This document shows positions 47,781 to 64,000 of a DNA stretch of 64,000 nucleotides, one piece after another. The notes below the pieces were generated by a model that saw only the letters and a program-made list of their open reading frames with translations, did no database searches and was not told the DNA's origin. Position numbers and translations under genes: made by a program. The stretch's first letter is position 1. Every line of letters begins with the position of its first letter. Origin of the DNA: Glycomyces sp. TRM65418 (GTDB lineage Bacteria > Actinomycetota > Actinomycetes > Mycobacteriales > Micromonosporaceae); assembly GCF_019710475.1 (NCBI RefSeq), contig NZ_JAJFAX010000003.1, forward strand, positions 434,001 through 498,000. The letters are read 5' to 3'.

Positions 47781-50015
47781 TCAGTAGGTGATGTCGGGCC
47801 TGGGCGGCGCGCTCATGCCCGCGCCCAGGAAGTAGTCGACGTGGTGGGACTGCATGTAGCCCTTGACGGTCATGTCGTTCCGGTAGGCCGGGTTGTGCGC
47901 CAGGGTGTACAGCCGGATGTCGCTCGGCCGATCGGTGGTGAAGATGATCAGCTCGTTGTACGAGCTGTTGGGAAGGACGACCTCCTCGCGCCAGTCGCCG
48001 AGGATGTCGGCGAGCAGGGTGGGTTGGCTGCGCGGCCCGAGGACACCGCCGTAGCTCCAGGTCTGCTCCAGCCGCGGCAGGCTGTTGGTCGTGGTGGGGT
48101 TGTTCGGGTCCCACTTCTCGATCTTGCCGCTGTTGAACAGCTCCATCGTGACGTCGCCGTCCCACCACAGGCCCATCTGCGGGTAGGGCCGCAGGTTGGT
48201 GTCGGGCTCGGTCAGCCGGTTGCTCGGGGCGTTGTAGAGGCCGTCGAACGACCAGACCTCCATGCCCGGGTGCCGCGGGTCGACGTCGCCGGCCATGCCG
48301 CGTCCGACGTCGGCGGTACCGCTCAGCACGTGCTTCCAGATGATCCGACCGGTGGCGGCATCGTAGTAGTACTCGCGCAGCCCGCTCGGGTTGTCCTGCT
48401 GCACGGCGTAGCCTTCCAGGCCCGGTCGGCTCGGGTCCATGTCGGCGATGTGGAAGCGGTCGCCGTGCACGACGCCCTGGCTGCCCATCGAATAGCGCAG
48501 GCTGCCGTCGCCGTTGAGGACGAATCCGATCTCGACGAACTCGTCGGTGCCGTTCCCGTCGACGTCGAGGCAGCGGCTGTTGTGCCCGTCCGGGTGGTTC
48601 CCGTTGCCGCGCAGCCACTTCCACTGCAGGTTGACGCTGCTGCCGTTGAAGTTCCAGGCGCTCACCATGAGGTTGAACCCGCCGTTGCCGATGCGGTTCT
48701 TCATGAAGGCGACCAGGCTCGGCGTTTCGCCGTCGAGGTGGCAGGCGGCGAACCGGGCGTACATCGGGCCGTCCGAGAGGTAGTCGGTGGGCACCTTCGC
48801 CGAGGAGCGGAGCGCGCCGGTCCGCCCGTCGAGGATGGCGATGAACTGCTCGGTGTCATTGGAGTGGTTGAATCTGGCGCCGTTGCCGAAGGTCACGCCG
48901 TTGGCGATCCTGACCGCGACTTCGGCCCGGCCGTCGCTGTCGAAGTCGTAGACGGTGACGCCGTCGTTGTGACCGACGTTGATGGTGGCCGAGCCGCCTT
49001 CGATGTTGTTCTGGTCGGTGCTGTTGGGCCCCATGTCGACTTCCCAGAGGAAGGCGCCCTTGCCGGAGTAGGCCTCGATCTTCTGCGGGGAGGTCTGGCG
49101 GTCGACCACGTAGTCGTAGGCGCCGTCGCCGTCGAGGTCGCCGACCCAGGTGAAGTTGATCGGGCCGCCGTTGCGCAGCGGAATGCGGACGGCCGGTTCG
49201 TCGGCGTGGTCGGCCGTCAACGTGAATCCGGGGCTCCGCTCCTGCTCGACGCCGCCGACGACCGGGGCGACCCGGTACGTGTTCGACTGGGACAGGTTCG
49301 CGGTGCGGTCGAGGTAGTTGGTGCCGCCCGTCAGCGGGCTCGAGTTGAGCTTCACCTCGTTGCCGCCGCCGGCCGACCGGTAGACGTTGAAGCCGATGCC
49401 CGTGGGGTCGAGCCCGAGCAGGCGCCAGCTGACCAGGACGTCGCCGCCGTTCCGTACGGCCACGACGCCTCGGTCGAGATCCTCCATCGGACGGGTCCCC
49501 TGCGCCGGGCTCCCGCCCGTGGCGACGTCGAGGTAGTCGATGTTGGCGAGGCCCGACGCGGTGGTGGCGACGAGGCGGACCGTGTTGGAGCCCGCCTTCA
49601 CCGGCACGGTGACCGAGTTGGTGGACCAGGCGTTCCACGCGCCGGTGCTCGCGAACCCGACCGCGGACCGCGCCGTCGAGCCGTTGACCTGGACGTCGGC
49701 CGGGCGGGTGTCGCTCCCGCCGCTGGCGTAGCGGATCCCGAGGGTCGCGGTGCCCGCCTGGGAGGCGTTGAACGTGAACGCCACGGCGGCGCCGACGGCG
49801 TTGGGGGTGTTGCAGAATCCGCTGCCGGAGTAGCCGGAGTGGTTCGCGTCGACCGTGCCGTCGCAGACGGCCGGCGACCGCTCGGCCTCGTACCTGCCGT
49901 CCTGGGCGTGCGAGGTCGCGGTGCTCGCGGCGAAGCCTCCCGCGAGCGCCAGCAGGGCGACCGCGGCCCCGGCGACCCAGCGCCGCAATGGCGCTCTTCG
50001 CGTAAACGTTTCCAT
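47781..50015 (-). CDS. Secreted rhamnogalacturonan lyase, PL11, with N-terminal CBM35-like module
   Basis: 744 residues. A signal peptide (about 1-38, METFTRRAPLRRW then a hydrophobic core) is followed by a CBM35-like module (YEAERSPAVC to YLDVATGG, about 42-165). The PL11 beta-propeller comes next: RGVVAVRNGGDVLVSWRLLG, then calcium-type loops DLDGDGAYDY, DFDSDGRAEVAV and DVDGNGTDEF, and a C-terminal GDWREEVVLP. It cleaves the rhamnogalacturonan I backbone of pectin by beta-elimination outside the cell. ATG at 50015 follows GGGAG at five bases. Divergent from the PL26 gene. Confidence 0.92.
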   Translation of the reverse strand: METFTRRAPLRRWVAGAAVALLALAGGFAASTATSHAQDGRYEAERSPAVCDGTVDANHSGYSGSGFCNTPNAVGAAVAFTFNASQAGTATLGIRYASGGSDTRPADVQVNGSTARSAVGFASTGAWNAWSTNSVTVPVKAGSNTVRLVATTASGLANIDYLDVATGGSPAQGTRPMEDLDRGVVAVRNGGDVLVSWRLLGLDPTGIGFNVYRSAGGGNEVKLNSSPLTGGTNYLDRTANLSQSNTYRVAPVVGGVEQERSPGFTLTADHADEPAVRIPLRNGGPINFTWVGDLDGDGAYDYVVDRQTSPQKIEAYSGKGAFLWEVDMGPNSTDQNNIEGGSATINVGHNDGVTVYDFDSDGRAEVAVRIANGVTFGNGARFNHSNDTEQFIAILDGRTGALRSSAKVPTDYLSDGPMYARFAACHLDGETPSLVAFMKNRIGNGGFNLMVSAWNFNGSSVNLQWKWLRGNGNHPDGHNSRCLDVDGNGTDEFVEIGFVLNGDGSLRYSMGSQGVVHGDRFHIADMDPSRPGLEGYAVQQDNPSGLREYYYDAATGRIIWKHVLSGTADVGRGMAGDVDPRHPGMEVWSFDGLYNAPSNRLTEPDTNLRPYPQMGLWWDGDVTMELFNSGKIEKWDPNNPTTTNSLPRLEQTWSYGGVLGPRSQPTLLADILGDWREEVVLPNSSYNELIIFTTDRPSDIRLYTLAHNPAYRNDMTVKGYMQSHHVDYFLGAGMSAPPRPDITY
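50002..50013. promoter_or_regulatory. Candidate LacI operator overlapping the PL11 start codon
   Basis: GTAAACGTTTCC on the plus strand (50002-50013) contains the palindromic AAACGTTT and overlaps codons 1-5 of the PL11 gene. On the minus strand it reads GGAAACGTTTAC. The 10-mer AACGTTTACG also occurs upstream of the lacI-family gene at 44.4 kb. Confidence 0.35.
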
Positions 50016-50111
50016 GATTGCTCCCATCATGCCGGGCGAACGGAGCGTCGATGTGACCGGGGACGGCCGTAGTCGTGATCGTCTCGGTGTCGGTTAGCTG
50101 ATCTCAGCCGG

Positions 50112-53021: not shown

Positions 53022-53616
53022 AGCGCGTCATCGCCTCGACCAGGGTGTCCTGCAGGCCCGTGAGCCAGTCGTAGACCATCGCCAGGGGCTTGCGCACGTC
53101 GGCGTCCGGCAGCTCGCGCAGCTCCTCGTACACCTCGTCGTCGGTGATCTCCAGCCGCGTGGCGATGGCCAGCCGCAGGTCGTTCAAGGTGCCGAGCCAA
53201 TGCCGGCACTCGTCGGGCTTCAGGTGGAGCATCACGCGGCGGTCCCCCACCGGGTCGAGCGCGTCCAGCGAGCGGATCACCGCCAGCGCGTCCTCGCGTT
53301 TGCGGGCGCGCAGGTCGTTCTCGGTGAAGCGGCGGAACTCGGCGGAGGCGGCGCGGGCGTCGATCTCGTCCGCGGGGCCGTCGGGATCGGTGTAGGCGTC
53401 GGGGAAGAGGCGGGCCAGGACGGGGTCGGCGGGCGGCTCGCTCGGTCCGGCGTCGAACGCGGATTCGATGAGCTCCTCGGCGTCGCCGCCGAGGGCGCCG
53501 CAGGGGCCGATCAGCTCCACGAGCTGCTCGGCGTAGTCGCGCAGGACCGCGATCTCGACGTCGTCGAAGTCCACGGCCGCGCCGCCGCCGCGCAGCGGCT
53601 TGAAGTAGCCCGCCAT
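53020..53616 (-). CDS. DUF2017 family protein (AosR-like)
   Basis: 198 residues. The conserved core includes FDDVEIAVLRDYAEQLVEL (about 17-35), LDALDPVGDRRVMLHLKPDE and WLGTLNDLRLAIATRLEI. DUF2017 proteins follow clpS in most actinobacteria; the mycobacterial member AosR is described as an oxidative-stress-responsive regulator of a cysteine-biosynthesis operon. The mec/cysO/cysM genes that usually follow are not here. Its ATG overlaps the clpS stop by one base. Confidence 0.88.
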   Translation of the reverse strand: MAGYFKPLRGGGAAVDFDDVEIAVLRDYAEQLVELIGPCGALGGDAEELIESAFDAGPSEPPADPVLARLFPDAYTDPDGPADEIDARAASAEFRRFTENDLRARKREDALAVIRSLDALDPVGDRRVMLHLKPDECRHWLGTLNDLRLAIATRLEITDDEVYEELRELPDADVRKPLAMVYDWLTGLQDTLVEAMTR

Positions 53617-53966
53617 CAACGGTCCTGCCGGAGGGTCGCCCAGAGGCCGTAGCCGTGCATGGCCTGCACGTCGCGCTCCATCTCCTCGCGGCTGCCGCTG
53701 GAGACCACCGCGCGGCCCTTGTTGTGGACGTCGAGCATCAGCTGGTTCGCCTTCGCTTCGGAGTAGCCGAAGTACGTCTGGAAGACGTACGCCACGTAGC
53801 TCATGAGATTGACGGGGTCGTTGTGGACGATCGTGATCCACGGCGGGTCGGGTTCGGCGACCTCGGCGGGCGTCGCGGACGGGGCCGAGCGCTCGGTCTC
53901 GGCCGGGGCGCCGAATGCGCTCCGGTACGGCGGGACGGCGGTCGCGGATGGCGGATGGGCGCTCAC
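53616..53966 (-). CDS. clpS: ATP-dependent Clp protease adaptor ClpS
   Basis: 116 residues. A disordered N-terminal tail of about 40 residues precedes the ClpS core: [20 protein letters not shown] (about 42-61) with the Asn-Asp of the N-end-rule pocket, then [20 protein letters not shown]. It delivers substrates with destabilising N-termini to ClpC/ClpP. GTG start at 53966. It is directly followed by DUF2017. Confidence 0.93.
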
Positions 53967-55159: not shown

Positions 55160-55303
55160 GTGCGACGCATGATCGTTTCGCTGGCCCTCTCCCTCACCGC
55201 GCTCCTCGTGTTCGGCCTGGCCGCCACCGGGACCGGCCATGCCGACGAGGCCGACCTCGCCGGCAACGGCTGGGGCAACGGCGGCCCGGCGGTCGGAGGG
55301 TAA
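55160..55303 (+). CDS. Small secreted peptide (47 residues)
   Basis: GTG start seven bases after AGGAAG. The product begins MRRMIVSLALSLTALLVFGL, a signal peptide with an Arg pair and a hydrophobic core, and a likely cut after TGHA. This leaves a 19-residue mature peptide, DEADLAGNGWGNGGPAVGG, which is acidic then Gly/Asn-rich, with no Cys, Ser or Lys. That argues against a lanthipeptide or lasso precursor. It stands alone, convergent with the TrmB-LuxR regulator and just before the AmCP cluster, with a shared terminator between. A signalling or surface role is possible. I do not recognise the family. Confidence 0.6.
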   Translation: MRRMIVSLALSLTALLVFGLAATGTGHADEADLAGNGWGNGGPAVGG

Positions 55304-55333
55304 CCGAATCCGGCACCACCCCGGCTCCGAACA

Positions 55334-55362
55334 CGGCATCGCGCCTTCACGGCGCGGTGCCG
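55334..55362. terminator. Bidirectional terminator between peptide gene and LuxR-type gene
   Basis: CGGCATCGCGCC (55334-55345) pairs with GGCGCGGTGCCG (55351-55362), with one T-G wobble, around the loop TTCAC. It lies between the convergent small peptide and regulator genes. Confidence 0.78.
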
Positions 55363-55374
55363 TCGTCGTTCGGG

Positions 55375-56361
55375 TCAGATCAGGTCGGCCTCGCAGATGA
55401 GACCGCGGGCCGAGGCCAGCGCGCCGAGTTGGAAGCGGCTGCGCGCCCCGAGGCGCTTGGTGAGGTCCTCGGAGAGGCGCCGGATCGTGCGGTGGGAGAC
55501 CTTCATCTGGCGGGCCGCCGAGGCGTCGGTGTGGCCCTGGGCCCAGAGTTTGAGCACGTGCTGCTCCTGGGCGGTGAGCGGCTCGGCGCGGCCGGGGCGG
55601 CGGCGGGTCAAGGGCTGGGCGTCGGCCCAGATGTTGATGAACAGGGCGACCATCGCCTGGATGATGACGCGGTTGCCGAGGACGAGCGCCCCGATCTCGC
55701 AGTCCAGGTCGTCGATGGGGATGATGGCGCGCTCGCGGTCGAAGACGATCATCCGCAGCGGCAGGGACGGCGCGGTGCGGACCTCGCCGCCCGACTCGAT
55801 CTCCCAGTTCAGGGCTTCCATGGTGTAGGGGTCGTTGCGGACGGCGTCGAGGTAGACCGACTTCATCCGCACCCCGCGCTTGAGGACGTCCTCGTCGACC
55901 GCCTGCGCCTCTTCGAAGGTCTCGGGGGTGAGCTTGCCGACGGGGACGAGGATGAGCTGCTCCTCGACGCATGCGGCGGCGAGCTCGGCGATGCGGGCGC
56001 GGATGGCCTTGAGCCCGATGAGCTGCTCCACGCCGCTGTCCCCGGGGGCCTTGGCCCCGTACTTGGAGAGCATGCGGGTCATGGCCATCCGGCCCTCTTC
56101 GAGCTGGTGCTGCATGTTGGCGACCGCGGCCTGCTGCCTGGCGAGGAGCGAGGCGAGACCGACCTGCGGGTCCACGAGGGAGACCCGGCCGTCCTCGTTG
56201 GTGATCAGGGCGGCGCGGCTGAGGTCGTCGATGGCGGTCTGCACCGCGTCGCGCTCGCACTGGGTCAGCTCGGCCAGCTTCGCCACCTCGAGGGTCGGAT
56301 TGTCGAGCAGCGCGAGATAGACGGCTTCGGTCTCCGAGTCGAATCCGAAGGTGCTGAGCAT
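55375..56361 (-). CDS. TrmB-like / LuxR-type HTH transcriptional regulator
   Basis: 328 residues. The N-terminal TrmB-like winged helix (about 1-60: FGFDSETEAVYLALLDNPTL, LTQCERDAVQTAIDDLSRA) is followed by a short coiled coil (about 70-98) and a central sensor-like domain. The C-terminal LuxR HTH is at about 265-325 (LTAQEQHVLKLWAQGHTDAS, VSHRTIRRLSEDLTKRLGA). This combination is common in actinobacteria near secondary-metabolite genes. ATG at 56361, six bases after GGAAGGA. It is divergent from the AmCP cluster across 393 bp and convergent with the small secreted peptide, so it is the likely cluster-situated regulator. Confidence 0.83.
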   Translation of the reverse strand: MLSTFGFDSETEAVYLALLDNPTLEVAKLAELTQCERDAVQTAIDDLSRAALITNEDGRVSLVDPQVGLASLLARQQAAVANMQHQLEEGRMAMTRMLSKYGAKAPGDSGVEQLIGLKAIRARIAELAAACVEEQLILVPVGKLTPETFEEAQAVDEDVLKRGVRMKSVYLDAVRNDPYTMEALNWEIESGGEVRTAPSLPLRMIVFDRERAIIPIDDLDCEIGALVLGNRVIIQAMVALFINIWADAQPLTRRRPGRAEPLTAQEQHVLKLWAQGHTDASAARQMKVSHRTIRRLSEDLTKRLGARSRFQLGALASARGLICEADLI

Positions 56362-56488
56362 GGGGGTCCTTCCGAGGGGGGAACCGGCCCGGGTCCCGGG
56401 CGGATTCGGCGACGGCAGGTGGTGCACCGCGAGCGGAGCGGATCGGCCCGACCGGGACACCGGCGTCGCGGTTCGGTCACCGGTCGAA

Positions 56489-56510
56489 ATATAACACGCA
56501 TATAACACGC
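56489..56510 (-). repeat. Two contiguous 11-bp direct repeats ATATAACACGC
   Basis: ATATAACACGC occurs at 56489-56499 and again at 56500-56510 with no gap, followed by a degenerate GCGCATACG. On the minus strand the repeats give TTATAT, a plausible -10 for the TrmB-LuxR gene about 130 bp downstream. The 11-bp period is one helical turn, so a regulator could bind the same face twice. This AT-rich island is unusual in the window. Confidence 0.6.
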
Positions 56511-56653
56511 GCGCATACGAAGTGGAAGCGCCTCGCTGCGCACGGTCACTCCGGAGGCCGGCGGCTTCGACCGTCCGAAGCGAACAGGGGACGCGTCCGG
56601 AGGCGGGTCCGGTTGCCTCCGTCGCCGTCTCGGTCCGTGGCAGAAATGCTCGC

Positions 56654-56694
56654 ACTCCCGTGCGCACAAGTGACCACTGACGACTCCCGTGCGC
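56654..56694 (+). repeat. Two 12-bp direct repeats ACTCCCGTGCGC upstream of the carrier-protein gene
   Basis: ACTCCCGTGCGC lies at 56654-56665 and 56683-56694, 29 bp apart, 60-100 bp before the LysW-like ATG. It may be an activator site for the AmCP operon. Chance in GC-rich DNA cannot be ruled out. Confidence 0.4.
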
Positions 56695-56754
56695 GGCGGC
56701 CAGAGTTGGACGCGAACCCTCCCCCACCTTCAGGAAGGAACCGGTGGCCGCCAC

Positions 56755-56943
56755 ATGAGCACTCAGACCGCCTCCGCCGACTGCCTCGTCTGCGACGCGC
56801 CCTTCACCATCGACGCCGATTGGGAGAAGGGCGAGATCGTCGAATGCGCCTCCTGCGGCCAAGAGCACGAGATCGCCGAGCAGACCCCCGAACGCACCCG
56901 CGTCGAACTCGCCCCCGAGGTCGAAGAGGACTGGGGCGAGTGA
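56755..56943 (+). CDS. lysW: LysW-like amino-group carrier protein (AmCP)
   Basis: 62 residues, small and acidic. A zinc-ribbon has two CxxC pairs (Cys10/Cys13 in DCLVCD and Cys31/Cys34 in ECASCG). The C-terminus ends in EEDWGE, the signature of LysW carriers; the terminal Glu side chain is where the substrate amino group is attached. It protects and carries the growing amino acid through the ligase, kinase, reductase, transketolase and aminotransferase steps encoded downstream. Its stop overlaps the GTG of the LysX-type ligase. In lysine or arginine synthesis the same carrier works with aminoadipate or glutamate; here the neighbours point to a specialised product. Confidence 0.92.
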   Translation: MSTQTASADCLVCDAPFTIDADWEKGEIVECASCGQEHEIAEQTPERTRVELAPEVEEDWGE

Positions 56944-57818
56944 ACGACCTGCAGGCCGACGTCCTCCTGTCGGTCACCGTGCTCCGCCCCGAGGAGAAGC
57001 TCCTCGGGGCGGCGCTCCGGGCGCGCGGCCTCGCCGTGACGACCCTCCTGCCGCCCGACCTCGGCGCGGTCGTCCGCGGCGGGTCCGCCGCCCGGCTCGG
57101 CCTGATCCGCAACGTCTCCCATCAGCAGGCCCACACCACGGCGCGGCTGCTCGAGCACTCGGGCATCGACGTCCTCAACCGCTCCTCGGCCATCGAGGCC
57201 TGCGGCGACAAGGGCATCCAGGCGCTCATGTTCTCCCGTCACGGCGTCCCCCACCCCGAATCGCACCTCGCGTTCAGCTTCGATCAGGTGCGCGAGGCCG
57301 TCGCGGCGTTCGGGTGGCCCTCGGTCGTCAAACCGGTCAGCGGCTCCTGGGGCCGGGGCGTCACCCGCATGGTCAACGTCGAGTGCGTGGACGCGTGGAT
57401 CGGCGGCCGCGAGTCCGCCGACGCCGCCGGGAAGCTCTTCCCGGTCCTCGTGCAGGAGTACGTCGACAAGCCCGGCCACGACCTGCGGGTCGTCGTCGTC
57501 GGCGCCGAACCGGTGGCGGCCATCCGCCGCGTCTCCGAGCACTGGCGCACCAACACCACGCTCGGCGCCGACGTCGAGCGCCTCGAGGTCACCGACGAGA
57601 TGTCCGAGCTGTGCCGCAAGGTGACCGACATCCTCGGCGAGGGCTTCTACGGCATCGACCTGGTCGAGGACCGCGCCGCCGGCGAACTCAAGGTCCTGGA
57701 GGTCAACGCCAACCCCGAGTTCGCGAAGTCCTCCATGGTGCACGGCGTCGACATCGCCGCCGCCGTGGCCGAACACGTCAGCGCGAACCTCGCCACCACC
57801 CTGCCGGCCGCCGGCTGA
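56940..57818 (+). CDS. lysX: LysX/RimK-type ATP-grasp ligase loading the carrier protein
   Basis: 292 residues of the RimK/LysX ATP-grasp family. VLNRSSAIEACGDKGIQALM (about 75-94) matches the N-domain/ATP-grasp boundary. Nucleotide and metal sites are in VVKPVSGSWGRGV (about 132-144), VQEYVDKPGHDLRVVVVG and VLEVNANPEFAKSS near the C-terminus. The NxNPEF form resembles glutamate-using ArgX/LysX enzymes. It should join the alpha-amino group of glutamate to the C-terminal Glu of the carrier. GTGA overlap with the carrier gene. Confidence 0.9.
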   Translation: MNDLQADVLLSVTVLRPEEKLLGAALRARGLAVTTLLPPDLGAVVRGGSAARLGLIRNVSHQQAHTTARLLEHSGIDVLNRSSAIEACGDKGIQALMFSRHGVPHPESHLAFSFDQVREAVAAFGWPSVVKPVSGSWGRGVTRMVNVECVDAWIGGRESADAAGKLFPVLVQEYVDKPGHDLRVVVVGAEPVAAIRRVSEHWRTNTTLGADVERLEVTDEMSELCRKVTDILGEGFYGIDLVEDRAAGELKVLEVNANPEFAKSSMVHGVDIAAAVAEHVSANLATTLPAAG

Positions 57819-57833
57819 GAAGGAGGAGTCCGC

Positions 57834-58490
57834 ATGGAGCCATTCGACACCGCCGTGGTGCTCACCCGGGTCATGACCTCGGGCACCGTGATGAGCATCG
57901 AGAAGGCCGACCGGGAACTGCCCGGACTGGAGCGGCTGCTGGCCAGGCAGTGCGGCCGCCCGCACGTCTCGCTCGTCAACTCCTCGACCGCCGCGGTCCA
58001 CGCGGCCGTGGCCGGCCAGGGCCTCGGTCACGGCGACCGCGTCGACGCGACCGGGCTCGACGAGCCGACGGTCGCGTTCCTCGCCTGGCTCGGCATCACG
58101 GCCGGCGACGGGCCCGTGCCCTTCGACCGGGTCCGCCTCACCCCCGAGAACGCGGGCCGCCTGCGCGAGCTCGCCGCCGAGGCCACCGCGCCGGCGCTCG
58201 TGGTCGACCTGTGCGACCTGGGCTTCGGTCCCGCCGCCGCCGTGGTCACCGCCGACGAGACCGCCTGGGCGCGGGCCGAGCGGCTGAAGATCTTCGGCGC
58301 CTTCGACCTCCGGACCATGTGGACGCAGGAGGAGTCCAACCCCGGCCTCGTGCCGGGCGTCCAGTTCAACTACCGCCTCAGCCCTCTGGTGGCGGCCTGC
58401 ATCAGGGTCGCCCTCAACCAGGCCCGGGCCTCCCGGGGCGGCTCGCCGCGGGCGTCCGAGGCCACGGCAGCGTCAGGAGCCGCCCGATGA
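57834..58490 (+). CDS. Short degenerate DegT/DnrJ/EryC1-like protein
   Basis: 218 residues, about half the normal length of DegT aminotransferases. Recognisable pieces are VSLVNSSTAAVHAAVAGQGL (about 43-62, equivalent to the N-SGTAAL cofactor loop) and VQFNYRLSPLVAACIRVAL (about 177-195, the NYRM-type motif). The middle is condensed, and the SF..TKN..GEGG segment with the PLP lysine is missing, as is the C-terminal domain. An excellent ribosome site (AAGGAGGAG) and ATGA coupling to the full-length aminotransferase argue that it is a working gene, not a decayed one. It may be a non-catalytic partner subunit of that aminotransferase. Confidence 0.72.
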   Translation: MEPFDTAVVLTRVMTSGTVMSIEKADRELPGLERLLARQCGRPHVSLVNSSTAAVHAAVAGQGLGHGDRVDATGLDEPTVAFLAWLGITAGDGPVPFDRVRLTPENAGRLRELAAEATAPALVVDLCDLGFGPAAAVVTADETAWARAERLKIFGAFDLRTMWTQEESNPGLVPGVQFNYRLSPLVAACIRVALNQARASRGGSPRASEATAASGAAR

Positions 58491-59806
58491 TCACCGACTT
58501 CCCCACGGCGCCGCTCGATCCCCCGGGGCCCGCCGACCGCGAGGCCGACCTCGCCGCCCTGGGCGGCCCGGCCATGATCGGCAGGGAGGTGCGCCGCACC
58601 CCCTTCCCGGTCATCACCAAGGAAGACGTCCTGCACATGCTGCTCTCCCTGCGGCAGGACCCCGCCAAGACCGTGGACGCCTTCGCCGAGTCCTACCGGG
58701 ACTACGTCGGCGCGGCCTTCGCGCTGCCGACCGCGTCCGGCACGGCGAGCCTCCACATGGCACTCGTCGGCGCGGGCGTCGAACCCGGCGACGAGGTCGT
58801 CGTCCCCGCCTTCACCTTCATCGCCACCGCGCAGGCGGTCGTCGCCGCCCACGCGGTGCCGGTGTTCGTCGACATCGACCCCCGCACCTACTGCATGGAC
58901 CCGGCCGCCGCGGCGGCGGCCGTGACCGACCGGACCAGGGCCGTCATGCCCGTCCACGTGCACGGCCTCCCCGCCGACATGCCCGCGCTGCGGCGACTGT
59001 GCGACGAACGCGGCCTGGCCCTGGTCGAGGACGCCTCCCATGCGCACTCGGCGCGGATCGGCGACCACACGGCGGGGTCCATCGGGGACACCGCCGGGCA
59101 GAGCCTCATGGCCGACAAGAACTTCCCGCTCGGCGGCGAAGGCGGCATCGCGTTCTTCGCGAGCGCCGAGGCGCACGCCCGGGCGGTCGACTACCTGGCG
59201 CGGCACGGCATCGACTACCGGATGGCGCCCATCGCGGCGGCCTTCGGCGCGAGCCAGCTGGAGCGGCTGCCCTACTACGACCGGGTCCGGGCCCGCAACG
59301 CCGCCGTCCTCGGCGACGCCCTGCGCCAGACCGGTCTGTTCGAGCCGCCCCACGTCCCCGAAGGACACGTCCACGCCTACAACATGTACCGCATCGGGCT
59401 GCGCCCCGAGCGGATCGGCCTGGACGACCTCCCCGTCCACGCCGTCAAGCAGGCGGTGCACGAACTGCTGGTCGCCGAAGGCGTCCCCGCGCGCGAATGG
59501 CAGAACACGCCGATCCCCTGCCACCTGCCGTTCCGGCACCGCGACGGGTTCGGCGGCGGGTACCCCTTCAGCCTCAACCCCGGGGCCGTCCGCGACCACC
59601 GCCCCGAGGACTTCCCGAACACGCTCGCCATGCTCGAGAGCACGCTCGTGCTGTGCCGCGAACTGCGCTCCCCTGTGGAGTACGAGCGCGTGCTCCGCTA
59701 CGGCGAGGCCTTCGCGAAGGTCGCCGCCCGCCCGGACGCGATCCGGAAACTGGCCGCCGGAGGCGATTGCCCGCCGCCGCACCGAAGGGCGGCCCGCCTT
59801 GGCTGA
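58487..59806 (+). CDS. DegT/DnrJ/EryC1/StrS family PLP aminotransferase
   Basis: 439 residues. PLP-site residues are all present: TASGTASLHMAL (about 82-93), Asp182 in VEDASHAHSA, and the Schiff-base Lys211 in SLMADKNFPLGGEGG. VHVHGLPADMPALRRLCDERG is also typical. It would aminate the C6 ketone of the carrier-bound seven-carbon intermediate made by the transketolase (inference). The ATG overlaps the stop of the short DegT-like gene (ATGA). A short C-terminal extension of about 20 residues overlaps the start of the reductase gene. Confidence 0.88.
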   Translation: MITDFPTAPLDPPGPADREADLAALGGPAMIGREVRRTPFPVITKEDVLHMLLSLRQDPAKTVDAFAESYRDYVGAAFALPTASGTASLHMALVGAGVEPGDEVVVPAFTFIATAQAVVAAHAVPVFVDIDPRTYCMDPAAAAAAVTDRTRAVMPVHVHGLPADMPALRRLCDERGLALVEDASHAHSARIGDHTAGSIGDTAGQSLMADKNFPLGGEGGIAFFASAEAHARAVDYLARHGIDYRMAPIAAAFGASQLERLPYYDRVRARNAAVLGDALRQTGLFEPPHVPEGHVHAYNMYRIGLRPERIGLDDLPVHAVKQAVHELLVAEGVPAREWQNTPIPCHLPFRHRDGFGGGYPFSLNPGAVRDHRPEDFPNTLAMLESTLVLCRELRSPVEYERVLRYGEAFAKVAARPDAIRKLAAGGDCPPPHRRAARLG

Positions 59807-60839
59807 CCAGCGACGCGTCAACGCGGCCGTCATCGGGGCGAGCGGCTACACCGGCGGCGAGACCGTCCGGCTCCTGGCCGACCACCCCGAGGTGCGCCTG
59901 ACGTTCCTCTCCGCCGAACGCCACGCCGGCTCCACCGTGGGCGCGGTCCACCCGTGGCTGCGCAACCATCCGACCGCCGGGAAGCTGAAGCTCGAGCCGC
60001 TGGAGGCGATGCCCGACGTGGACGTGGCCTTCGCGTGCCTGCCGACCGGCGCGCTCCCGAAGCTGCTCCCGCAGGTGGCCGCCCGCGCCGCGGTGGTCCT
60101 CAACCTGGCCGGGGACTTCCGGCTCCACGACCGGGCCGAGGCCCGCCGGCACTACCCCGACTCCGAGATCGCCGACCAGCGGTTCGCGTACTTCGTGCCG
60201 GAGCTGTCGACCGACCTGGGCGCCGAGCGGTTCGTCAACCTGCCCGGCTGCATGGCCGTCGCCTCGATCTACGCGCTGTACCCGCTGTTCTGCGACAACC
60301 TCGTCGAGCCCAGGGTCGTCGTCGACGCGAAGACCGGCTCCTCCGGCTCGGGCAAGGGCGGCGGCGAGCACCCGGCCGAACGGGCCGGGAACTTCCGCGT
60401 CCACAAGCCCCACGGCCACCGGCACGCCCCCGAGATCCGGCAGGCCCTCGCCGAGTTCACCGGCTTCGAACCCGAGCTCCAGTTCTCCTCCCACAGCCTC
60501 GACCTGCCGAGGGGGATCATGGTCAGCTGCTATTCGCAGCTTCGCGAAGGGGTCTCGGCCCTGGACGTGAAACGCGCGTACGCCTCCGCCTATGCCGGGA
60601 AGCCGTTCGTCAAGGTCCGCACGGCCCCCAGGCGCCCGCAGGACTTCCCGATGCTCAAGGCCGTGATCGGCTCGAACCTCGCCGAGGTCGCCGTCAGCGT
60701 CCAGGGCACCGAGGCGGTGAGCGTGGCCGCGCTCGACAACCTCGTCAAAGGCGCCGCCGGACAGGCCGTGCAGACGATGAACCTCATGATGGGCATCGAC
60801 GAGGCGACCGGCCTGCCCACGACGGCGGTGGGCCCGTGA
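59799..60839 (+). CDS. lysY: LysY/ArgC-type carrier-bound acyl-phosphate reductase
   Basis: 346 residues. The NADPH motif VIGASGYTGGETVRLL (about 11-26) and the active-site Cys151 in VNLPGCMAVASIYAL identify the ArgC/LysY family. SSGSGKGGGEHPAERAGN matches the substrate loop. It reduces the glutamyl-phosphate held on the carrier to the semialdehyde. The start is TTG at 59799, eight bases inside the aminotransferase gene, because the NADPH motif begins 10 residues later and no ATG fits. Confidence 0.9.
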   Translation: MADQRRVNAAVIGASGYTGGETVRLLADHPEVRLTFLSAERHAGSTVGAVHPWLRNHPTAGKLKLEPLEAMPDVDVAFACLPTGALPKLLPQVAARAAVVLNLAGDFRLHDRAEARRHYPDSEIADQRFAYFVPELSTDLGAERFVNLPGCMAVASIYALYPLFCDNLVEPRVVVDAKTGSSGSGKGGGEHPAERAGNFRVHKPHGHRHAPEIRQALAEFTGFEPELQFSSHSLDLPRGIMVSCYSQLREGVSALDVKRAYASAYAGKPFVKVRTAPRRPQDFPMLKAVIGSNLAEVAVSVQGTEAVSVAALDNLVKGAAGQAVQTMNLMMGIDEATGLPTTAVGP

Positions 60840-62686
60840 AGCCGCTCTACTGCGTCAAGGTCGGCAGCGCCACCATCGACCGGGCCGCGCTCGGCGAGAG
60901 CGGCGTCCACGCCGAGATCGCCCAGCTCGTGCGCCGCGGTGCACGGGTGCTCATGGTCGCGGGCGGCGCGGCCGGGATCGAACGGCACTACCGGGCGGTC
61001 GGCCGCCCGGTGCCGCGGCTGCGGCTCGCCGGCGGCGACGCGATCCGCTACTGCCCGCCCGAGGAGATGGCGCACCTCGTCGACGCCTACCGCCGGGTGA
61101 CCCTGCCCGCGGTCGAGGCCGGACTGCGCGCCCACGGGATGCGCGTCCACGCCGCTCCCGCGGTGGAGCTGGTCCGCGGGCGCGCCAACCGGCCGCTGCG
61201 GGTGCAGTCCGCGAGCGGCGGCACGCGCCTGGTGCGCGACCACCGGGCGGGCCTGCCCACCGAGGTCGACACCGAGCGGCTGGAGGCGCTCCTGGAAGCG
61301 TTCGACGTCGTCTGCCTCTCGCCGCCGATCGCCGACGCCGAGGGCGGCGCGCCGCTCAACGCCGACGCCGACGTCCTGGCCGCGGTCCTCGCGAACGCCC
61401 TGCGGGCCGACCACCTCCGCCTCGTCACCGGCACCGCCGGGCTCCTGGCCGACCCGGACGACCCGGCCTCCACCGTCGCCGACCTCTACCCCGGCGAGGG
61501 CGCGGCGTACGCGGGCGGGCGCATGAAGCAGAAGGTCCGCGCCGCCGAGATCGCGCTGCAGGCCAGCGCCGACGTGGCGATCTGCGGGCCCGACACGATG
61601 AGCGACCCCGCCGGCTGGACCCGGTTCTGGCCCAGCCGCGAGCCCGCGCCCGACCTCGCGCTGCTCACCCGCGCCGCCGCCGTCCCGTCGGTCTCCGGCG
61701 ACGAACGCGAACTCGCGGTCTACCTGCGGGACTGGTGCACCGCGCAGGGCATCGAGGCCGCGATCGACCCGGCGGGAAACCTCGTCGCCGTCAAAGGGAA
61801 CGGGCCGCGCCGCCTGCTCATGCTCGGCCATCTCGACACCGTGCCGTTCCACTGGCCCACCGTCTGGGAGGAGGGCGGCACCCTGTTCGGGCGCGGCACC
61901 GTCGACGCCAAGGGCTGCCTGGTCAACTTCCTCGAAGTGCTCGCCGCGACCGACGTCGGCGAGGACTGCCAGGTCCGCGTGGTCGGCGCGGTCGAGGAGG
62001 AGGTCTCCTCCTCCAAGGGCGCCTTCTGGGTCCGCGACCACTATCCGGCCGACGCGGTCGTCGTCGGCGAGCCGAGCGGCTCGGGGACGCTGACGCTCGG
62101 CTACCACGGGCTGTTCAAGCTCCGGATCACCGCCGGCGTCGACAGCGGCCATTCGGCGGCGCGGGACGCGGTGTCCGCTCCGGACGCACTCATCGCCGCG
62201 CTCGCGGCGTTCCGCGAGGCCGTGCTCGCCGAGGCGCCCGAATCGCTCAGCGCCGTCATCGACATGCGGACCGAGCGTCGGCCCGGCCGCGACGAGGCCA
62301 CGGCCGTCCTCAACTTCCGCATTCCCCCAGGGGCCGAACCGGACGCGCTCATCAAGGCGCTCCCCGAGATCCCGGGGGTGGACGCGGCGATCCTGCGGGC
62401 CACCCCCGGGCACCGGGGCCCGCGCACCTCGCCGCTGGCGCGGTCCTTCTCGAAGGCCTTCGCCGCCAACGGGATCCGGCCCCGACACGTGGTCAAGAAA
62501 GGCACCTCCGACATGAACACGCTCGCCACGACCTGGGAGGGCGTGCCGATGGTCGCCTACGGCCCCGGCGACTCGGCGCTCGACCACACCGACGCCGAGC
62601 GCATCGGCGCCGACGAGGTGCGCCTCGCCCGCGCGGTGCTCGCCGACGCCGTCGCCCACTGGCTCGGGACGGAGGCGCGGCGATGA
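60836..62686 (+). CDS. Fused LysZ-type amino-acid kinase and LysK/ArgE-type M20 deacylase
   Basis: 616 residues read as one uninterrupted frame. Residues 1 to about 258 are an amino-acid kinase of the LysZ/ArgB class: VKVGSATID, VAGGAAGIERHYRAVGRP, and GRMKQKVRAAEIALQASADV at the end. From about 270 to 616 lies an M20 peptidase: zinc ligands in LGHLDTVPFHW (His near 332) and GRGTVDAKG, the EEE of VGAVEEEVSSSKG, and VVGEPSGSG. The kinase activates the carrier-bound side chain. The deacylase cuts the finished amino acid from the carrier. Such a fusion joins the second and last steps of the route. GTG start overlaps the reductase stop (GTGA). Confidence 0.88.
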   Translation: MKPLYCVKVGSATIDRAALGESGVHAEIAQLVRRGARVLMVAGGAAGIERHYRAVGRPVPRLRLAGGDAIRYCPPEEMAHLVDAYRRVTLPAVEAGLRAHGMRVHAAPAVELVRGRANRPLRVQSASGGTRLVRDHRAGLPTEVDTERLEALLEAFDVVCLSPPIADAEGGAPLNADADVLAAVLANALRADHLRLVTGTAGLLADPDDPASTVADLYPGEGAAYAGGRMKQKVRAAEIALQASADVAICGPDTMSDPAGWTRFWPSREPAPDLALLTRAAAVPSVSGDERELAVYLRDWCTAQGIEAAIDPAGNLVAVKGNGPRRLLMLGHLDTVPFHWPTVWEEGGTLFGRGTVDAKGCLVNFLEVLAATDVGEDCQVRVVGAVEEEVSSSKGAFWVRDHYPADAVVVGEPSGSGTLTLGYHGLFKLRITAGVDSGHSAARDAVSAPDALIAALAAFREAVLAEAPESLSAVIDMRTERRPGRDEATAVLNFRIPPGAEPDALIKALPEIPGVDAAILRATPGHRGPRTSPLARSFSKAFAANGIRPRHVVKKGTSDMNTLATTWEGVPMVAYGPGDSALDHTDAERIGADEVRLARAVLADAVAHWLGTEARR

Positions 62687-63492
62687 GCGCCCTGGCCTTC
62701 ACCGAAGACCTGCAGGGGAAGCGCGACGCCGCCGAGCGGGCGAAGGCCGCGCGCCGCCTCATCGTCGACATGGCCGCCAGCGAGCGCGGCTGCCACCTCG
62801 GCGGGAGCCTGTCGGTCGTCGACCTGCTCCTGGCGGCCCTCGACCGGGCCGAAGGCGACGACGGGACGCGCGTCGTGCTCAGCAAGGGCCACGCCGCGGC
62901 CGGGCTCTACGCCGCCCTCCACGTCACCGGCCGCCTGGCGGAGAACCCCGCCCCGCACTACGGGCAGGCCGGGCACCCGTACACCGGGCATCCCGGCCCG
63001 AAGGTCCCCGGCGTGGCCTTCCCTACGGGGAGCCTCGGCCACGGCGTGCCGTACGCGGCCGGATGGGCCTGGTCGCAGCGCCTCAAGGGCGGCGGCGGGC
63101 TCGGCATCGCCGTCAGCGGCGACGGCGAGCTCCAAGAGGGACTGGTGTGGGAGACCCTGCAGGTCGCCGCCGCGCGCCGCCTGGGCAACTTCGTGCTCCT
63201 CGTCGACCGCAACGGCGGGCAGAACGACGGCTACGTCGAGGACATCTCGCCGCTGCCGGACCTCGCCGACCGGTTCCGCGCCTTCGGATGCGACACCGCC
63301 GAGGTCGACGGCCACGACCACGCCGCATTGAGCGCCGTCCTCGCCGGCGAGCGCCGCGGGGACCGACCCCTCGCGGTCGTCGCGGCCACCGTCAAGGGCA
63401 AGGGCGTGCGCGCCGTCGAGGGCAAGGCCGCCGCCCACTACGTCACCATCGACGCCGCGCGCGCCGAGCAATGGAAGCGGGGCATCCGATGA
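62683..63492 (+). CDS. Transketolase N-terminal subunit
   Basis: 269 residues, only the thiamine-diphosphate-binding half of a transketolase. The metal/ThDP motif is GDGELQEGLVWETLQVAAARR (about 146-166) followed by LLVDRNG. LSKGHAAAGLYAAL and GSLGHGVPYAAG supply cofactor histidines. With the next gene it forms an alpha2-beta2 enzyme. In this cluster it should move a two-carbon ketol unit onto the carrier-bound glutamate semialdehyde, giving a seven-carbon chain. Overlaps the preceding stop by four bases. Confidence 0.9.
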   Translation: MSALAFTEDLQGKRDAAERAKAARRLIVDMAASERGCHLGGSLSVVDLLLAALDRAEGDDGTRVVLSKGHAAAGLYAALHVTGRLAENPAPHYGQAGHPYTGHPGPKVPGVAFPTGSLGHGVPYAAGWAWSQRLKGGGGLGIAVSGDGELQEGLVWETLQVAAARRLGNFVLLVDRNGGQNDGYVEDISPLPDLADRFRAFGCDTAEVDGHDHAALSAVLAGERRGDRPLAVVAATVKGKGVRAVEGKAAAHYVTIDAARAEQWKRGIR

Positions 63493-64000
63493 CGCTCTCC
63501 GGACGCGACGCCTACCGCGCCGCCCTCACCGAGCTCGCCGCGGGCGACCCGGCCGTGGTGTGCATCGAGGCCGACCTCGGCGGGAAGCGGCACCCGTTCG
63601 CCGAGGCCCACCCCGACCGGTTCTTCAACGTCGGGATCGCCGAGGCCGCCATGATCGACATGGCCGCCGGGCTCGCCGCGGGCGGCTGGAAGCCGTTCGT
63701 GAGCACCTTCGCGCCGTTCGCGACGCTGCGCGCCGCCGAGAGCTTCAAACTGGCGCTCGGCTACCTCGGGGCGCCCGTCACCGTCGTCGCCCCGTACGCG
63801 GGCGTCTCCGGGGCCTGGTTCGGCACCACGCACCACTGCCTCGAAGACCTCGCGGTCGCCCGAGCCGTCCCGGGCGTGGTGGTCGCCGCGCCCTACGGCG
63901 AGGCCGAGATGCGCGCGGTCGTCACCGCCGCGGCCGCCTCGGGGCGGCCCCACTACATCCGCACCGGCCGCAACGCCGCCTATGACAGCCTCTCCCCCGC
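63489..64000 (+). CDS. Transketolase C-terminal subunit (3' end outside window)
   Basis: The first 170 residues are visible; the gene continues past the edge. The pyrimidine-binding domain is clear: VCIEADLGGKRHPFAEAHPD, RFFNVGIAEAAMIDMAAGLA (about 44-63, with the conserved Glu that activates ThDP) and VSTFAPFATLRAAESFKLAL. It completes the split transketolase with the upstream subunit, to which it is coupled by an ATGA overlap. Confidence 0.9.
   Translation, partial: MTLSGRDAYRAALTELAAGDPAVVCIEADLGGKRHPFAEAHPDRFFNVGIAEAAMIDMAAGLAAGGWKPFVSTFAPFATLRAAESFKLALGYLGAPVTVVAPYAGVSGAWFGTTHHCLEDLAVARAVPGVVVAAPYGEAEMRAVVTAAAASGRPHYIRTGRNAAYDSLSP

Follow-up and report, generated by a model that had tools for sequence, protein, structure and literature searches.

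An operon in Glycomyces sp. TRM65418 probably encodes a carrier-protein route to a C7 diamino acid resembling 2,6-diamino-5,7-dihydroxyheptanoic acid (DADH), with a two-chain DegT aminotransferase and with ATP-grasp ligases that may couple the acid into a small peptide. All but the end of its core lies in the window, a stretch of 64,000 nucleotides from contig NZ_JAJFAX010000003.1 in a genome of 5.09 Mb. Positions given here are window positions, to which 434000 is added for contig coordinates, and the 12.6 kb between the window edge and the contig end at 510643 were read as well. We refer to this class of operon, in which amino-group carrier protein (AmCP) genes are combined with transketolase genes, as type II, a label of our own. 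The original prediction, made from the window alone, had proposed a DADH-like building block, and this is still the best reading, given that the genes form a carrier pathway outside primary metabolism that includes a transketolase and an aminotransferase.

All core genes are on the forward strand. The first, lysW (56755..56943), encodes a LysW-like carrier of 62 aa that matches Pfam Zn_ribbon_LysW (PF21344) at 44.7 bits (cut-off 27) and is the genome's single LysW match; its C-terminal EDWGE is invariant in 18/18 carriers aligned (32 were at hand). It overlaps in GTGA with lysX (56940..57818), a LysX/RimK-like ATP-grasp ligase according to Pfam and NCBIfam (RimK family; TIGR02144 at 238 bits, under its cut-off of 275.6). 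Next are genes for a short DegT-fold subunit of 218 aa (57834..58490) and a long DegT aminotransferase subunit of 439 aa (58487..59806), both recognized with Pfam (225 bits for the long DegT), and then lysY (59799..60839, TTG start assumed), a LysY/ArgC-like semialdehyde-forming reductase with 288 bits to the argC model TIGR01850, above its cut-off. The LysZ kinase and LysK M20 hydrolase are encoded in one 616-aa frame (60836..62686), in which the LysZ part has an AA_kinase family match and the LysK part scores 293 bits with the subfamily model TIGR01902 (cut-off 163). The transketolase is split into an N-terminal half, tkN (62683..63492), in which the thiamine diphosphate motif GDG...N is intact, and a C-terminal half, tkC (63489..64430), which crosses the window edge at 64000. 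Both halves were matched by Pfam and tkN also by NCBIfam, and motif alignment covered both. Transketolase, LysZ and LysK retain their active-site motifs, and the Pfam and NCBIfam assignments place LysX-, LysZ-, LysY- and LysK-type genes next to the carrier gene, as in AmCP/LysW systems.

Every member of the set named in the original prediction (LysW with EDWGE, LysX, LysY, LysZ, LysK, DegT and a split transketolase) is thus present with family support, while some details of the layout need correction. The pathway was said to run from 55160, but the core begins at 56755, and the gene at 55378..56352 (reverse strand) encodes a regulator. LysZ and LysK, which had been listed as separate genes, are both there but fused. 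All genes had been described as coupled by stop-start overlaps, and this holds for the other core junctions, that of degT and lysY depending on the TTG start of lysY, but not for lysX and the short DegT gene, which are divided by a 15-base gap containing AAGGAGGAG; it is the one junction from lysW through the transporter gene past the edge that does not overlap.

The original prediction also counted a single DegT and overlooked the short gene. In 36/36 sequences the long subunit keeps the catalytic Lys and Asp and has Asp in place of the cross-subunit Asn (GxN motif), a count that leaves out the truncated L016, L017 and L035 as well as L021, whose degT is too short for the filter (the locus is still counted as complete). 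The short subunit keeps the Asn, here in the motif QFNYR, and is missing the Lys-Asp stretch in 37/37, which is 38 minus a reverse-strand degT in L099 that was picked up by the short-DegT query. Single DegTs of the Fic25-type branch considered below keep the Asn in 7/7. Against the PDB, the long protein scores 494 bits with chain A of 8y96, a hetero-oligomeric aminotransferase, and 228 bits with Fic25, and the short protein matches 8y96 chain C; the long and short chains of 8y96 are together in one crystal. The motifs indicate that the pair shares one active site, with its residues split between the long and short chains. The short protein, having no catalytic Lys-Asp stretch, might instead be a non-functional remnant beside a long DegT that acts alone as a homodimer. 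We consider this very improbable, because the short DegT is kept at 60-72% identity in 29/31 loci (the remaining two are cut by contig ends), its gene is directly 5' of the long gene wherever both occur, the two chains crystallized together in 8y96, and the complementary Asn is consistently lost from the long subunit. The two-part enzyme gives a straightforward way to test how a paralogue that is itself dead can turn into an obligate half of an active site. In Streptomyces roseolus, we noted a degT (L021:11618-12421) without residues 142-304 of the window protein, due to decay or an assembly error.

We gathered 39 related loci, 31 from a LysX scan with one genome per species, three from a plasmid search with DegT, and five from a family search with the window excluded. 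The one-genome-per-species scan found 21 loci in Streptomyces and others in Kitasatospora, Nocardiopsis, Saccharothrix, Actinopolyspora and further genera. All nine core segments are in the same order on one strand in 35 of the 39 loci, so the gene arrangement is not due to chance; L016, L017 and L035 stop at contig ends, and L103 holds seven of the nine segments. The L103 cluster stops within lysK, and no transketolase match comes after it in the stretch read, although the contig continues. LysZ-LysK is a single frame in all 28 loci of the one-genome-per-species scan that hold the gene. The short DegT is rare, being found in 5/394 genomes of the class and 6/200 of the family (the window's own is counted in both). 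The match-free family genomes listed include at least 20 from the window's own genus, and beyond the listing there are 174 more without a match. A midpoint-rooted tree built from LysX and the two transketolase halves (46 sequences, 841 columns) places the type II loci in a clade of 35 with support of 0.936 and the non-type II loci in a clade of 11 with support of 1.0, and the window pairs with L101, from a genome of the same family, also with support of 1.0.

The window system is a different, coherent branch from the Fic25-type clusters. A LysW search of the 394 genomes of the class gave 19 matches, 16 of them above the cut-off. Both transketolase halves were present in all 12 of the loci without a short DegT that we examined, and one DegT (33-37% identity) was found within 20 kb in 7 of them, L100 included. 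The aminotransferase Fic25, of the ficellomycin pathway, has been solved with an N2-acetyl-DADH adduct, according to the title of PDB 8gyj. Like the DADH pathway, the window encodes a two-part transketolase with the carrier genes; the single DegT of Fic25 type that belongs to that pathway was not found in the window, which has the split pair closer to 8y96_A. Two loci of the other branch (L090:708-2510 and L093:5392-7203) have a fused LysZ-LysK of 623-624 aa on the opposite strand, with 53-62% identity. This suggests, from the sequences, exchange between the branches, and it means that a fused LysZ-LysK is not by itself diagnostic of type II.

Past 64000, where the original prediction expected further genes, the operon continues on the forward strand with an ATP-grasp ligase (ATP-grasp 1, 64415-65665), an amidohydrolase-fold gene (65662-66975), a major facilitator superfamily (MFS) transporter (66972-68213), a short-chain dehydrogenase/reductase (SDR; 68227-69168), an ABM protein (69168-69476) and a second ATP-grasp ligase (ATP-grasp 2, 69478-70734). 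ATPgrasp_N, ATP-grasp_4 and LAL_C2 are all over their cut-offs in ATP-grasp 1, whose nearest PDB match is the L-amino acid ligase BL00235 (3vot); in ATP-grasp 2 the first two are over the cut-off and LAL_C2 is below its own. An NCBIfam scan of the MFS, SDR, ABM, ATP-grasp 2 and regulator proteins gave no match above cut-off. It had been suggested that nonribosomal peptide synthetase (NRPS), sulfotransferase or ligase genes be looked for here, and ligase genes were found, but NRPS and sulfotransferase genes were not seen in the operon.

In the pathway that we propose, LysX would attach glutamate through its amino group to the carrier's C-terminal Glu. The kinase half of LysZ-LysK would phosphorylate the side chain, and LysY would reduce it to a semialdehyde. 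The split transketolase would then add a two-carbon ketol unit, giving a C7 5-hydroxy-6-keto intermediate, and the hetero-oligomeric DegT would aminate C6, its long subunit supplying Lys and Asp and its short subunit the phosphate-side Asn. Hydrolysis by the LysK half would release a 2,6-diamino-5,7-dihydroxyheptanoate-like acid. The ATP-grasp ligases may then join this acid to one amino acid or two, and the resulting small peptide would leave the cell through the MFS protein. We infer glutamate as the substrate, the chemistry of each step and the stereochemistry; the peptide product is the least certain part of the scheme.

The homology of LysW, LysX, LysY, LysZ and LysK would also fit an operon for primary lysine or arginine biosynthesis through LysW, but we can hardly give this any credence. 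The operon includes a transketolase and a DegT pair, and the short DegT is found in only the few genomes of the family and class counted above. In addition, one dapA and a second argC, which scores better than lysY and is above the cut-off, are located elsewhere in the genome, so these separate genes can serve primary metabolism. On this point, the original prediction of a pathway outside primary lysine and arginine synthesis is supported. Its proposed link to azabicyclo[3.1.0]hexane compounds is not supported. A product with the azabicycle (aziridine) of vazabitide A, ficellomycin or azinomycin would use the same AmCP, transketolase and aminotransferase functions, and the genome has ten Sulfotransfer_3 matches and one APS kinase match that could act in trans, yet we judge such a product unlikely. 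A scan of proteins from lysW through ATP-grasp 2, and of the SRPBCC protein encoded after it, gave no domain of a sulfotransferase, APS kinase or NRPS. On the contig, Sulfotransfer_3 matches come no closer to the operon than ~128 kb, the APS kinase is on another contig, and no condensation domain was matched in the whole genome, although 4/14 control genomes had matches. A search with Sulfotransfer_5 found nothing in the genome, but no control matched either, so it shows nothing. Fic25 falls in the separate branch, and it is there that sulfate-activation, sulfotransferase and NRPS genes are neighbours: Pfam searches of 118 neighbouring open reading frames (ORFs) of that branch (out of 129, after removal of those from L098, which nearly duplicates L097, of an overlapping ORF in L095, and of ORFs with at least 1500 aa) found 3 APS kinases, 3 PAPS-reductase domains, 3 sulfotransferases and 8 condensation domains. 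No such family is among the 25 commonest of 138 families in 114 type II neighbour ORFs (of 134; those under 1500 aa). For the group to which the window belongs, with two ATP-grasp ligases and an NRPS-free genome, a small peptide assembled by ligases is a likelier product than an aziridine compound from an NRPS.

Several observations weigh against the proposed pathway. The loop of tkN reads NGGQNDG in nearly all of 36 type II sequences vs N-G/R-LQ in 12/12 of the other branch, and the tkC loop reads WFGTTH in 35/35 vs mostly HLG-x-TH. Type II enzymes may accordingly use another donor or acceptor or give another stereochemistry, and what they make may not be DADH itself. LysW, LysX and LysZ are under the NCBI equivalog or domain cut-offs, which are set for lysine/arginine enzymes. 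The genes 3' of the core differ between loci, and in L010, L026, L027 and L029 the gene directly 3' of ABM, at the place of ATP-grasp 2 in the present operon, encodes a polyketide synthase (3056-3298 aa), which means that the end product is not necessarily a plain peptide. These modular genes are at L050:2535-11702 and L061:2568-11762 (both on the reverse strand), L058:2597-12490 and L059:2491-11781, with the domains checked for L026 only. The core can therefore feed other end products in these relatives. No substrate or product for any type II cluster was found in the literature searched; papers on type II clusters, 8y96 and Fic25 were likewise not found, and most subscription papers were outside the search, so this is no proof of absence. 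The transketolase loops, together with the different aminotransferase architecture and the downstream amidohydrolase-fold, SDR and ABM genes, lend some weight to a core that works as described but makes a different chain-extended diamino acid, such as a stereoisomer or one from another two-carbon donor or acceptor, which the amidohydrolase-fold, SDR and ABM proteins would reshape. We take this as a serious but less favoured possibility, since the carrier enzyme set is the same as in the DADH pathways and the catalytic motifs that we examined are kept in both branches. We continue to prefer a DADH-like acid coupled by the ATP-grasp ligases.

The regulator divergent from lysW has a C-terminal LuxR-type GerE helix-turn-helix and a weak N-terminal TrmB match in Pfam. 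Relatives of it (25-31% identity) are 5' of lysW in 16/31 loci of the one-genome-per-species scan, and in L101 the identity is 58%. We examined inverted repeats 5' of lysW and found nothing clear. After 70734, besides the SRPBCC gene (Pfam), there are ORFs that look beta-lactamase-fold-like, NhaA-like antiporter-like and hydrolase-like from their translations alone. Upstream in the window, the ORF at 47781-50030 (reverse strand) is presumably a secreted rhamnogalacturonan-lyase-type protein, and we take the ORF at 53616-53966 (reverse strand) to be ClpS, both judged by translation.

To our knowledge, carrier-protein pathways feed only a few natural products. Here a second, distinct branch with a conserved nine-segment core occurs across many actinomycete genera and on some plasmids of Bacillota, and we found no product for it, which makes it a clear target for genome mining. 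As a broader and tentative view, type II could be a separate carrier-protein branch with an obligate asymmetric aminotransferase, in which a half-subunit without catalytic activity and a catalytic partner share one site. Its two-ATP-grasp group, which includes the window, might produce small peptides for export, assembled without an NRPS and centred on a DADH-type acid, while in four relatives a polyketide synthase follows the same tailoring set instead. The core would travel as a unit among actinomycetes and Bacillota, also on plasmids, and would reach a Serratia strain, judged by the aminotransferase alone, with the surrounding genes exchanged.

Among known systems, the hetero-oligomeric aminotransferase of Serratia sp. 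ATCC 39006 (8y96, 8y97, 8y98) is the closest to the DegT pair. Its long and short chains match both DegTs (E of 6e-147 and 1.6e-44) and have the same Asp in the long chain and Asn in the short one, although it comes from another organism group and is compared here by its aminotransferase chains alone. The type II core is also found on three plasmids, from Pseudalkalibacillus hwajinpoensis, Staphylococcus epidermidis and Streptomyces camelliae, with the core order of the window and LysZ-LysK as one gene of 1821-1956 bases. On the first two there are ATP-grasp and MFS genes nearby, as in the present operon, but the cores have 32-58% identity to it and there is no amidohydrolase-fold match; on the S. 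camelliae plasmid the core is followed by genes for an amino-acid permease and an SDR. We noted that the S. epidermidis plasmid (L046, NZ_CP043848.1:19997-51313), of 54 kb and from a blood isolate, carries the whole core next to an ATP-grasp gene, an MFS transporter, an NAD(P)H oxidoreductase and a LysR regulator. In P. hwajinpoensis (L045, NZ_CP156675.1:299767-325086) the core is followed by the ATP-grasp and MFS genes.

The original prediction suggested a gene-by-gene comparison with known clusters, which we made against the Fic25-like locus L100/L118/L119, where the DegT of L100 matches Fic25 (8gyh) at 820.6 bits over 426 residues. The enzyme set proved to be shared (AmCP, LysX, LysY, LysZ, LysK, split transketolase and DegT aminotransferase), but not the arrangement or the type of DegT. 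In this locus the genes have 31-45% identity to those of the window and are dispersed over ~41 kb on both strands, LysZ and LysK are far apart, and there is a single DegT with the Asn kept and no short DegT match. L100 was excluded from the tree because there is no lysX in its 20 kb. The Thermus and Sulfolobus systems for lysine/arginine synthesis likewise have a LysW-family carrier with LysX, LysY, LysZ and LysK homologues; to these the window adds a transketolase and a split DegT, and its LysZ is fused to LysK. One paper describes DADH as made on AmCP and vazabitide A as a nonribosomal peptide (PMC9303977), and a 2022 review describes, for azinomycin, transketolase extension and amination of protected glutamate to DADH, followed by sulfation and aziridine closure (PMC9570651). 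The window shares with both pathways the protected glutamate, the two-carbon extension by transketolase and DADH, in the form that we propose, but its operon encodes neither the nonribosomal assembly of vazabitide A nor the sulfation and aziridine closure of azinomycin.

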